From Nanobdellota archaeon (GTDB lineage Archaea > Nanobdellota > Nanobdellia > Pacearchaeales > GW2011-AR1), in NCBI GenBank assembly GCA_027858295.1, contig JAQICZ010000012.1, positions 1 through 50,138 on the forward strand: 50,138 nt of DNA. The letters run 5' to 3'. Below the pieces are notes generated by a model that made no database searches, had not been told where the DNA came from, and saw nothing but the letters and a program-made list of their open reading frames with translations. The translations under genes and the position numbers were made by a program. Positions 28,151 through 33,510 of this stretch are shown here, piece after piece (the stretch's first letter is position 1; each line of letters begins with the position of its first letter).

Positions 28151-28300
28151 TTTTAACATTTGGTTAAAGAAAGTTCTTTGAAGTGCAACGGAAAAGAATT
28201 TGGGAAAATCTTGCAAGGATTTTCTCTTTAACTCTTGTTCATTTCTCCTAGGCGTAAGTCGAGAGCCTTTAAAGCGTGGCAAGCGAGATTAATTTTAGAC
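28151..28300 (+). repeat. Type-B structured repeat, copy B3 (attC-like candidate)
   Basis: TTTTAAC (28151) ATTTGGTTAAAGAAAGTTCTTTG...GGGAAAATCTTGCAAGGATTTTCTC...GTTCATT (28237)...GAGAGCCTTTAAAGCGTGGCAAG. Confidence 0.8.
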
Positions 28301-28368
28301 AAATTTTAAAGGGGGCGTTTTTGACTTTTTTAGTTAATTTAATAAAAGATGAAGCTAATTATTTTATT

Positions 28369-29403
28369 ATGAAATATTCAATTGCTTATAACTTTGATAA
28401 AAAATTGATAAATTATTATAGAAAAATAAATACTAAAAAGGATTCTATTTTTCAAGTTTTCTTTTCATCAAGTGAAGGTTACCTTGGGGGTGGTAGATAT
28501 AGAGGACTTCCAAAGATTTTATTAAAAAGAACACAATATCACTTTGAATACTTAAAAGGAAAAATGCAAGTGAATTATTTATTAAATAGTAGCTATTGTC
28601 CTGATTTAAGATATAAGCAAAATCGAAAAGATATTATGAATTATTTTTCATGGGTACAAACTCAAAAACCAGCGATAGTTACTGTTGCAAATAAAAAAAT
28701 CCTAACTTTATTAAGAGACAATTTCCCAGAATTAAAAGTTAATGTCTCAATTGTGATGGGAGTTAAGACAATTAAACAAGTTAATAATTTAAGAATAATA
28801 TATCCTAATATTACAAGAATAACTTTGCATCAAACAATAAATAGAGATAAAAATTTATTAGTTCAACATGTAAAAAATGCTAAGCAAAAAACTAAAAATA
28901 TGAATCCTGTTGAAATTGAATTATTAGCAAATGAAATTTGTTTATACAATTGCCCTATGATGAAAAAAGATTATTTGCATGCAAGTATTAAGTCTTTTAA
29001 TAAACGTAGCATTATTTCTCCTGTAACTTTAGCAAAACATAATAGATTTTCAAATTTCTGTGCAAATAAAAGAAGTGCTAATCCTATAAATTTTCTAAAT
29101 TCTTGTTTTATTCGTCCCGAAGATATTAAATTTTATGAAAAAATAGGAATAGACATAATAAAATTATCTGGAAGGGAGGCATCTTCGGATTACCTTCGAT
29201 TAATAGCTAAGGCTTATATGCGTAGATATTATGGGGAGAATATTATGGACTTGTTTCTTAAACAATGGTGGCCAGATAATGAGCCACCTTATGTTGACAA
29301 TAAATTATTAGATGGTTTTTTAATGTATTTATGGAAAAGAAATTTAAAAAAACTGATAGAAATTCCAGAACAATATAATATATCTTGGAAGTATCATCAA
29401 TGA
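28369..29403 (+). CDS. Peptidase U32-like family protein
   Basis: MKYSIAYNFDKKL; NEICLYNCPMMKKDYLHA; CFIRPEDIKFYEKIGIDIIKLSGREASSDYL; start placed after the repeat. Confidence 0.7.
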   Translation: MKYSIAYNFDKKLINYYRKINTKKDSIFQVFFSSSEGYLGGGRYRGLPKILLKRTQYHFEYLKGKMQVNYLLNSSYCPDLRYKQNRKDIMNYFSWVQTQKPAIVTVANKKILTLLRDNFPELKVNVSIVMGVKTIKQVNNLRIIYPNITRITLHQTINRDKNLLVQHVKNAKQKTKNMNPVEIELLANEICLYNCPMMKKDYLHASIKSFNKRSIISPVTLAKHNRFSNFCANKRSANPINFLNSCFIRPEDIKFYEKIGIDIIKLSGREASSDYLRLIAKAYMRRYYGENIMDLFLKQWWPDNEPPYVDNKLLDGFLMYLWKRNLKKLIEIPEQYNISWKYHQ

Positions 29404-29455
29404 TTTATTTTTTTTAAGCCCTCTGTTTTTATTTTTTTAGAGATTTAGAAATTAG

Positions 29456-29610
29456 ACATAATATCAGAATTTAAAGAAGTTTTTGAGAAGCAAAAAATTG
29501 GGGAAAATTCAGCAGGAATTTTCCTCTAAATTCTTGTTAAATGACCCGAACGGAATGAAATGGAGTGAGAGCACAGTGGGGTCGTAGTAAAATCTTTGAT
29601 TTCACGGAGA
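29456..29610 (+). repeat. Type-B structured repeat, copy B4
   Basis: ACATAAT (29456) ATCAGAATTTAAAGAAGT...GGGGAAAATTCAGCAGGAATTTTCCTC...GTTAAAT (29536). Confidence 0.8.
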
Positions 29611-29620
29611 AATTTCTATT

Positions 29621-30142
29621 TTAGCTACTTAATGGGAACTTTGCATTAGGAAACTCTTTTTTGAAAAATGGAATGTGTCCTGTACCAGTTAAAATTAATA
29701 CAGTGTCTTTATCTGGAATTAAACTTTTAAGATTTGATTTCATTTCAAGTTCTCCTTGATTCCATTTTTCTAAATCAATAATTTTCTTACTAATTTTTGT
29801 CAATTTTTCATTTGGTTCAAAATTGTTAAATTTTTCCCAAGAATGTTGTTTAATTATTTTCTCTTGTAAAGCAATGATTTTGTTCTCGTTTTCAGACGAA
29901 ATTCCTTTTTTTATTGTATTTATATTTGAATCAAATCCTTTACAAGAAATATTGTTTTCTTTTGCTAAATTTAATGCAAAAATCATTTCTTTAGGATATT
30001 TAGAAATTTTGTTATGTTTAATATCTTCTTGACATATTTCAATTAATAATAATTTAGGATTTATATCTAAAATAATTCTTTTTAATTCATTTTCGTTAGT
30101 AAATCCACAATGTAAAGTTCCTATAAAAAAAATTTCTGTCAT
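29621..30142 (-). CDS. TraB/TIKI-superfamily-like protein
   Basis: FIGTLHCGFTNENELKRIILDINPKLLLIEIC ... VLILTGTGHIPFF. Confidence 0.5.
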   Translation of the reverse strand: MTEIFFIGTLHCGFTNENELKRIILDINPKLLLIEICQEDIKHNKISKYPKEMIFALNLAKENNISCKGFDSNINTIKKGISSENENKIIALQEKIIKQHSWEKFNNFEPNEKLTKISKKIIDLEKWNQGELEMKSNLKSLIPDKDTVLILTGTGHIPFFKKEFPNAKFPLSS

Positions 30143-30192
30143 AAATTTAATGAACTATTGACATATATAAAAGTAGCTAAAATAGAAATTAC

Positions 30193-30344
30193 GTTTAACA
30201 TCGGGGCTCGATGAAGTTCTTTGGAGTGTAACGGAAAAGAATTCGGGAAAACTTGGCAAAAGTTTTTTCTTTAATTATTGTTATGTCTCCCAATGATTGG
30301 AAGGAGGAGAGCGTAGCGTGGCAAAATCCTTTCATGATTTTGAG
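30193..30344 (+). repeat. Type-B structured repeat, copy B5
   Basis: GTTTAAC (30193) ATCGGGGCTCGATGAAGTTCTTTGGAGTGTAACGG...GTTATGT (30280)...GGAGGAGAGCGTAGCGTGGC. Confidence 0.85.
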
Positions 30345-31600: not shown

Positions 31601-31659
31601 TCGCCGTCTATCTAAAAAACGAAGTGATACATCATGACAAAGAATAAGGGTGCAAAAGC

Positions 31660-32325
31660 TTATTTTTTCTGAAATAGATAAAACCTAAATTGGTATGGTT
31701 TTATTTTTGGAGAATCAAGATACTTAATTCTAACTACTGATTTAAAGCCTAGTTCATCAAGTAAAGCTTCATCGTTAACGATATCAATTAGATTTTCTGA
31801 ATTTTTATCTATCTTAGAATTTGTTTTTCTCATTTCTGCAACTTGATCAAAATGTTCATTAGCTAAATAAAATCCGTTGGGTTTTAGTACTCTGTTAATT
31901 TCTCTAAGCGCTTGAGTGTAGTCTATACCTAAATTATCAAGAGTCATTTCATTAGAATGAACCACATCAAAAAAATTAGATCCTAAATCCATATGTCCAA
32001 CAGAATCAACTATCTTATGGATTCTGGGGTATTCATCGTATTCAAAATTTTTTGGATCAGGATCTAATGAATATAAGTTTTCAGGTTTTAAACCATAGTA
32101 AAGTAAACCTTGGCAAAAAACAGAACCTAAACCACATCCAACATCTAAAACGACTTTATCTCTTACATTATGAATTAATTTTTTAAGAAGAGGGTGAATT
32201 GGTTGAATTGCATCATGTTTTTGTTCTTCTAAATACATTTGCAATATGCCTGGATCAGGACTATCTCTATGAAAACTTGACAATTCGTCTTGATTTTTAC
32301 CACTTGGTGAATTTTTAACAACCAT
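31660..32325 (-). CDS. Class I SAM-dependent methyltransferase
   Basis: KVVLDVGCGLGSVFCQGL, SLDPDPKNFEY, FDVVHSNEMTLDNL, INRVLKPNGFYLANEHF. Confidence 0.9.
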   Translation of the reverse strand: MVVKNSPSGKNQDELSSFHRDSPDPGILQMYLEEQKHDAIQPIHPLLKKLIHNVRDKVVLDVGCGLGSVFCQGLLYYGLKPENLYSLDPDPKNFEYDEYPRIHKIVDSVGHMDLGSNFFDVVHSNEMTLDNLGIDYTQALREINRVLKPNGFYLANEHFDQVAEMRKTNSKIDKNSENLIDIVNDEALLDELGFKSVVRIKYLDSPKIKPYQFRFYLFQKK

Positions 32326-32396
32326 AATTTAAAGAAATGGATGAAATATATAAGCTTTTGCTCCCCATTTACACTTTAGGCGATTATGAAAATTAA

Positions 32397-32551
32397 AACT
32401 AACATCGGAATTTAATGAAGTCGCATGACGTGCGATTTGGGTCGGAAAAGTTTGCAAGGTTTTGGAATCTTTTAATCGCTGTTCATTTTCCCGAGCGTAA
32501 TGAAAGGAGGAGAGTCTGCAAGGTGTGGCAAGGAGCGAAGGGAAATTTCAG
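32397..32551 (+). repeat. Type-B structured repeat, copy B8
   Basis: AACTAAC (32397) ATCGGAATTTAATGAAGTCGCATGACGTGCGATTTGG...GTTCATT (32481)...GGAGAGTCTGCAAGGTGTGGCAAG. Confidence 0.85.
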
Positions 32552-32569
32552 AATTTACTCCAGACCCCG

Positions 32570-33262
32570 TTAATTTGGTTTGTAGTTTAGGATTTTTTTT
32601 GCTTTAGAAATATCAGAATTGGAAACATCATCAGTTATTGTAAATGTTTCATACCATAATTTTTCTTTTGTTTCAATTGAAAGTTCTATTGCTTTAATTG
32701 CATTATCTATATCCAAAGAAACTCCTTCAAGTTTCCATGTTTCTCCACGTTTAGGACCTATTGGACCTAATCTCAAAATTATTGTTTGGATATTTTTAGT
32801 CAAACCGTAATTTGCAAGAATTTGTTCTGCAATAACTTTACTTGTTGAATATGAAATACAAGAATTGTCGCATTTTAATTCTCTTTGTATTTGTGTTAAA
32901 ATTGGATTCTTTTCTGACAAAGGAAGATTGTAAGGGATTCCTTCCTCAAATCCATAATAACTTGTAGAACTTGAATATATCATTTTTTTCACACCACATT
33001 CAAGACATGCTTGAGCAATATTAAAAGTACCTTGACAATTTATCTTAAAATAATCAGGAAAATCTTTTCCTTGGTATGGCCCCCTTATAGCTGCAAGATG
33101 TATAACAATATCACATTCTTTCATAGATTCTTTAAGTTGCTCAAAATTAAGAATGTCTTGATCTTCAACTAAATCATATTTTATGATTTCGTGTTTGTTT
33201 AACAAATGATTGACAAGTTCATTGCCCAAAAATCCTGAACTACCTGTAATTAAAATCTTCAT
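32570..33262 (-). CDS. NAD-dependent epimerase/dehydratase (extended SDR)
   Basis: MKILITGSSGFLGNELV, DIVIHLAAIRGP, YSTSKVIAEQIL, LRLGPIGPKRGE. Confidence 0.92.
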   Translation of the reverse strand: MKILITGSSGFLGNELVNHLLNKHEIIKYDLVEDQDILNFEQLKESMKECDIVIHLAAIRGPYQGKDFPDYFKINCQGTFNIAQACLECGVKKMIYSSSTSYYGFEEGIPYNLPLSEKNPILTQIQRELKCDNSCISYSTSKVIAEQILANYGLTKNIQTIILRLGPIGPKRGETWKLEGVSLDIDNAIKAIELSIETKEKLWYETFTITDDVSNSDISKAKKILNYKPN

Positions 33263-33326
33263 ATTAATAATGAATAATGCTTAAGAATTAAAAAAGTTTC
33301 GTAAAAGGGGTCTGGGGGTAAATTGA

Positions 33327-33510
33327 ATATAACATCGGGATTTAGAGAAGTTTCGTAGTGTAGTGGAGAAAATTTGGATGGAATCTGCAAAACGGAGCTC
33401 TTTAAGCCCTGTTAAGTCTGTGTGAAAATTTCAAAGAAATTTGAGAGCTTGCAAGGCGTGGGTCGCAGAGATTTTAAAGAAATCTCGAATAAGTCTAGTT
33501 AAGAGTTTTC
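33327..33510 (+). repeat. Type-B structured repeat, copy B9
   Basis: ATATAAC (33327) ATCGGGATTTAGAGAAGTTTCGTAGTGTAGTGG...GTTAAGT (33411)...GAGAGCTTGCAAGGCGTGGG; hairpin GAGATTT/AAATCTC. Confidence 0.8.

Follow-up and report, generated by a model that had tools for sequence, protein, structure and literature searches.

Introduction

What kind of element sets one gene after another between structured repeats in the genome of a Nanobdellota archaeon, and which enzyme would move these genes? The question is raised by a stretch of 50,138 nucleotides from the order Pacearchaeales (contig JAQICZ010000012.1 of assembly GCA_027858295.1, hereafter the window), in which seven structured repeats share one orientation at 28151–33417 and an eighth stands at 17153. 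An earlier note on this DNA had read the seven as attC-like sites of a gene-cassette array; their positions, common orientation and heptamers are as it gave them, while a lone and a degenerate further copy had escaped it (Table 1). We consider it highly probable that the repeats serve as recombination sites for integron-like gene cassettes, with a short XerA-like tyrosine recombinase as partner. The sequence evidence that the system works like an integron is strong, but it is not a canonical one, since the recombinase has no IntI insertion and the site carries a TC bulge instead of an extrahelical base in its L box. Very small archaea commonly have the system, and some very small bacteria apparently do too. 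If it is real, gene-cassette capture would routinely supply new genes to the smallest archaea, and both folded-site recombination without a domain held to be essential and the origins of integrons would become testable.

Sites in Relatives, R-Box Pairing and Cassette Boundaries

A covariance model was built from eight copies, the seven of the array and one extra. It recovers each of these at 50–97 bits (E 2e-8 to 1e-18 in the window), a match by construction with E-values that are rough, and it finds more copies in the same genome on contigs C47, C54, C31 and C6 (C6:7830), with a weak one on C12; these lend the model non-circular support. The search of relatives that the earlier note had proposed found sites in 73 of the 189 genomes of the order (E ≤ 1e-3) and, across the phylum, in 72 of 287 genomes (E ≤ 1e-4; 59 of 225 among genomes at least 90% complete), that is, in 25–39% of the sampled relatives. 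A scanner for AAC-L...L'-GTT, whose selection rests on the L arms and not on the variable R-box positions, gave 38 matches at a score of at least 28, against 1 in reversed sequence. Where pattern matches were selected by their left half only, a complementary L arm and then GTT followed in 81 of 125, compared with 3.3% when the L arms of other loci were used. A site-pattern search of IMG/VR gave one contig, in which the scanner detected no site; viruses are therefore no obvious carrier. The genomes are all metagenome-assembled or drafts, and the taxon labels of short contigs are possibly wrong; sites were also seen in short contigs labelled Thioploca (L149), ANME-2 (L139), Methanomicrobiales (L215), Methanosarcinales (L226) and Bathyarchaeota (L163), which may be misbinned DPANN DNA.

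In an integron, the half of the R box past the crossover is that of the next cassette, and R boxes should therefore match between neighbours and not within a site. After identical sites had been dropped, the R boxes of neighbouring sites were complementary at 204 of 255 variable positions, against 99 ± 7 in shuffles that leave relatedness in place, and 53 of the 85 pairs were perfect (z = 14), whereas complementarity within one site reached a z of 2.6. The idea had been prompted by one window pair; a hold-out of 24 pairs, which took only previously unseen sites, gave 64 of 72 positions and 19 perfect pairs (z = 7.7).

The boundaries of the mobile unit emerge from homology between loci. For 62 of 75 pairs, its left edge falls between −10 and +12 nt of where the site starts, and the right-hand edges, too few to be tested alone (n = 7), agree with the site boundary. 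One 1.3-kb unit, 79.7% identical, is common to L221 (CAJVXI010000024.1) and L145 (JABIBT010000017.1), with TAAC at both edges and unrelated DNA outside. Since L221 is labelled as an uncultured bacterium and L145 as Woesearchaeota, this cassette may have crossed from one domain to the other, provided that the bins are correct. Such sharp unit edges mean that the site, as written, moves together with the gene next to its GTT end. The polarity implied by the earlier note has to be turned round: RYYYAAC/GTTRRRY is symmetric under reverse complement, and the array evidence places the crossover at the end that had been taken as the start. Read in canonical polarity, the gene precedes its own site, as in bacterial cassettes, and the unit on the minus strand is G|TTARRY-gene-site, the exact crossover base being putative. 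The cassette genes are mostly co-directed (18 of 24 hold-out units).

Repeats that are hairpin-rich, intergenic and present in multiple copies per genome would likewise result from structured RNAs, terminators or a family of miniature transposons dispersed between genes. We find this hardly credible, as Rfam gave no match above threshold, complementarity lies between neighbouring copies rather than inside one, recombinases adjoin the sites, and shared segments stop at the site on both ends; with this last result the earlier note's own counter-case, an unrelated RNA or terminator without boundary polymorphism, falls away.

Anatomy and Fold of the Sites

The consensus of 150 sites runs ATTGCANNTAAC ATC GCGATTAAGAG AAGTT..hairpin 1..AATTTGG..hairpin 2..CTCTTAATCGC T GTTANRYGC, in which the L arms vary and are given as an example. 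In the fold of representative sites, an R stem (TAACA/TGTTA) is followed by a 2-nt TC bulge and an L stem of about 11 bp (of the GCGATTAAGAG/CTCTTAATCGC type), which runs into a three-way junction with two inner hairpins. Their fold strength corresponds to z scores of −5.8 to −6.8, the window copies being weaker (−1.2 to −4.2), and both strands of a site fold about equally well. The bulge, read as TC on the plus strand of the window, lies between R and L, beside the crossover box, and is conserved (T 98%, C 79%). No extrahelical base was found in the L box, where the arms pair without a gap. Matching TAAC/GTTA and ATTAAG/CTTAAT boxes occur in the attC of aadA7 (3045 plasmid records), whose extrahelical base we take, from general knowledge of attC and a reading of the sequence, to be located in the L box; the present sites have none. 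The three-way junction and gapless L box set these structured R-box sites apart from standard attC.

Recombinases beside the Arrays

Tyrosine recombinases adjoin the arrays in many relatives. Among 28 array-clade genes, those that score better with the profile of that clade, sites stand on the expected side within 5 kb in 18, and none has solely opposite-orientation sites there; at L221 further sites lie beyond the recombinase, and L144 has an oppositely placed site only. All nine hold-out recombinases are found past the final site and share its strand as written. Where present, the recombinase reads away from the array, with a half-site between. By eye, the recombinase genes of L070, L178, L086, L114, L142, L204, L080 and L182 tend to abut housekeeping-looking genes (MacB-like permease, SRP54, topoisomerase I, SMC, P-type ATPase).

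The array recombinases are short, two-domain proteins whose best family model is XerA_Arch, a truncated copy reaching 217 bits against the NF040815 cut-off of 220. In a first tree the array clade stood apart from housekeeping XerA. The predicted structure (predicted local distance difference test score 88) is matched best by IntI4 (2A3V; template modelling score 0.81–0.82), and some of the proteins bear the NCBI label "site-specific tyrosine recombinase/integron integrase". The IntI-specific insertion is absent: IntI4 aligns to the recombinase in two stretches, and the region of IntI1 residues 197–244 has no counterpart in the array recombinases, with 46 alignment columns, including IntI1 197–216, 221–231 and 234–244, filled in IntI and empty in them. 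No integron integrase scored above the TIGR02249 cut-off in the 189 genomes of the order, and none of the matches listed traverses model positions 195–218, which belong to the insertion.

These results bear on two alternatives. An ordinary archaeal integron, or cluster of attC sites lacking integrases (CALIN), of the published type would have standard attC, served by a true IntI encoded at another place of the genome or by a neighbour. Both kinds of array have been published, Nanoarchaeota included (PMC9668308), and the R and L boxes do resemble those of aadA7 attC; this explanation is unlikely, given the lack of an integrase above cut-off, an array-adjacent recombinase without the IntI1 segment, and a bulge and three-way junction in place of the extrahelical base. 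Alternatively, housekeeping XerA might shuffle modules through dif-like, double-stranded sites flanking genes, in the manner of pdif. The nearest family model is XerA's, and pdif modules (PMC6449649) are a known precedent. We consider this very unlikely, because the long folded site stands on one side of the unit only, polarity is fixed, R boxes pair across the cassette, and a separate array-side recombinase exists besides housekeeping XerA in four genomes (G000, G003, G010 and G045).

Half-Sites and Proposed Mechanism

A TAACA-type box precedes most of the recombinases examined, often with an inverted repeat after it and, where archaeal loci were inspected by eye, a TATA-like stretch nearby. 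The R box of this candidate attI matches that of the closest site in 75 of 90 positions (35 ± 5 expected), with a perfect core in 13 of 18 loci, although the half-sites were partly picked by eye and several matches had been seen before the test. This choice by eye is one of several points that weigh against the cassette reading. Within the window, only one of the six neighbouring pairs is perfect, two have one G.T pair, and three are non-complementary. Some sites are chimeric, their two L arms mismatched to each other. The recombinases of L130, L168, L201 and L254 adjoin sites, yet their array-clade profile score is not clearly above that of XerA. In a broader tree that takes in IntI, the deep nodes are weak and two genes adjoining arrays fall close to a XerA-like gene. 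Recombination activity is predicted from sequence, and housekeeping XerA could be the enzyme acting on the sites.

The chimeric sites are L097:2943, L099:4884, L109:922, L106:5414 and L100:750, and the right half of the L097 site is common to L029, a locus in the same genome as the window; it seems that exchange also happens within sites.

In the integron-like mechanism that we favour, each site would be a folded analogue of attC. A free circular cassette would fold so that its two R boxes pair, recombining presumably as a single strand, and the short recombinase, the candidate enzyme, would insert it at the half-site adjoining its own gene, so that the newest cassette would lie closest to the recombinase. 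The R-box match of the half-site is the trace to be expected from such insertion.

State of the System in the Window

The seven sites of the window array cover 5.3 kb, and the window holds no recombinase (Table 1). The sites are assigned to the minus strand by canonical integron polarity, with the crossover end at the low coordinate. The ACATAAC of c4 is perfectly complementary to GTTATGT, the R box of c3. Beyond c7 there is neither a half-site nor a recombinase.

Table 1. Sites and cassette genes of the window.
Feature	Coordinates	Strand	Description
Extra degenerate site	7830..7948	-	38.5 bits
Extra lone site	17153..17244	-	AACTAAC / GTTAAGT; 97.5 bits, top match to the covariance model
attC-like site c1	28151..28243	-	R boxes TTTTAAC/GTTCATT; L arms GTTAAAG/CTTTAAC; two inner hairpins; DNA fold of 28148-28246
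Cassette gene 1	28276..29403	+	Peptidase_U32 match, weak; travels with c1
attC-like site c2	29456..29542	-	ACATAAT / GTTAAAT; fold z -4.2
Cassette gene 2	29621..30142	-	TraB-like/DUF5694, match below cut-off
attC-like site c3	30193..30286	-	GTTTAAC / GTTATGT; its GTTTAAC pairs with the c2 R box, one G.T
Cassette gene 3	30437..30805	+	Cys-rich; no Pfam match
attC-like site c4	30811..30899	-	ACATAAC / GTTAAAT; most degenerate and weakest of the seven array copies
Cassette gene 4	30950..31369	-	NADAR domain, 8.7e-23
attC-like site c5	31448..31538	-	GTTTAAC / GTTATAT
Cassette gene 5	31660..32325	-	S-adenosylmethionine methyltransferase
attC-like site c6	32397..32487	-	AACTAAC / GTTCATT
Cassette gene 6	32570..33262	-	NAD-dependent epimerase
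attC-like site c7	33327..33417	-	ATATAAC / GTTAAGT; closes the array

The recombinase hunt beyond the window, also suggested in the earlier note, brought to light two array-type tyrosine recombinase genes, on contigs C12 and C54, and no full IntI in the 189 genomes. Both genes are degraded, with no intact N-terminus and with in-frame stops, and each has beside it one site and one half-site, between which the R-box match persists. As both copies are broken, the window array is a decaying cluster without an integrase, and is probably not active at present. The earlier note's two descriptions, a cassette array without a local integrase and a distinct cassette system, thus both apply, the latter by virtue of a separate recombinase lineage. 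Nor do the repeats sit at a fixed position beside the same orthologues, the other counter-case that it had named. Orthologues of the permease beside the array occur in 9 of 10 congeneric genomes (59–65% identity), and no site was present in the 1.5 kb fetched downstream of these nine; the window array is thus not fixed at its place.

Other repeats occur in the window. A second set of long repeats, at 8001–10720 and 17298–20102, consists of pairs 81–93% identical and about 9.3–9.7 kb apart; one member, GTCCGAAGGACTGCGGGC... (10649, 20031), also stands immediately ahead of the G010 recombinase, in a region of degenerate site and half-site (L078), and so seems able to sit within such sites. A 62-nt repeat, CCAATGGCATGACCCGATATGGGAAGCTGGGCCTC, has three window copies (20917, 49660, 49882) and is unrelated to the sites.

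Comparison with Known Systems

Archaeal XerA/dif shares with the present system a short, two-domain recombinase that scores just under the NF040815 cut-off. It comprises a single housekeeping recombinase and one chromosomal dif, whereas here cassette arrays carry folded sites, and the recombinases lie beside arrays and outside the XerA clade, a position that rests on the first tree, deep placement being weak. The sites of pdif modules are short, double-stranded and flank the modules. In Acinetobacter plasmids, a Xer-type recombinase likewise moves genes (PMC6449649); unlike these modules, the present cassettes carry one long folded site each and have a dedicated recombinase.

Integrons with canonical IntI have been described in archaea before: a screen of 6718 genomes found 75 integron-bearing ones and six integrases, with the IntI-specific domain required for acceptance (Ghaly et al. 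2022, PMC9668308). Integron finders that require this domain would miss an integrase of the present kind. Those arrays resemble ours in being cassette arrays in archaeal metagenome-assembled genomes, with attC-like structured sites, an attI beside the integrase gene and, for the majority, no detected integrase; they differ in site shape and in a recombinase with the IntI-specific domain. The window array itself has at least two sites within 4 kb and no integrase gene nearby, as in a CALIN, although its sites are not standard attC. In the literature searched on integrons in DPANN archaea or bacteria of the Candidate Phyla Radiation (CPR), PMC9668308 was the sole relevant paper, and the recombinase-site pair was unreported, the Nanoarchaeota CALINs of that paper not having been matched site by site. 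Conservation of the IntI insertion is incomplete in an integron-like subgroup (PMC8138268), which makes the boundary of the integron family soft. We give about an even chance to a second, XerA-derived lineage of cassette capture in DPANN archaea and CPR bacteria, with folded attC-like sites and neither IntI domain nor extrahelical L-box base, which would be either independent of IntI or a state that preceded the domain. A tree of IntI, XerA and array recombinases is compatible with either origin.

Compared with bacterial integrons (IntI1/attI1/attC), the present system lacks the IntI-specific additional domain and the extrahelical L base, and has instead a TC bulge on the crossover side and an L stem of about 11 bp that runs into a three-way junction. 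It shares with them the layout, mostly co-directed single-gene cassettes that each end in a structured site with RYYYAAC/GTTRRRY R boxes, R boxes that travel with their cassette, a crossover at the R box on its GTT end, the TAAC/GTTA and ATTAAG/CTTAAT boxes, the recombinase fold, and an attI-like half-site beside a divergent recombinase gene, found in 18 loci examined and matching the last cassette in 13.

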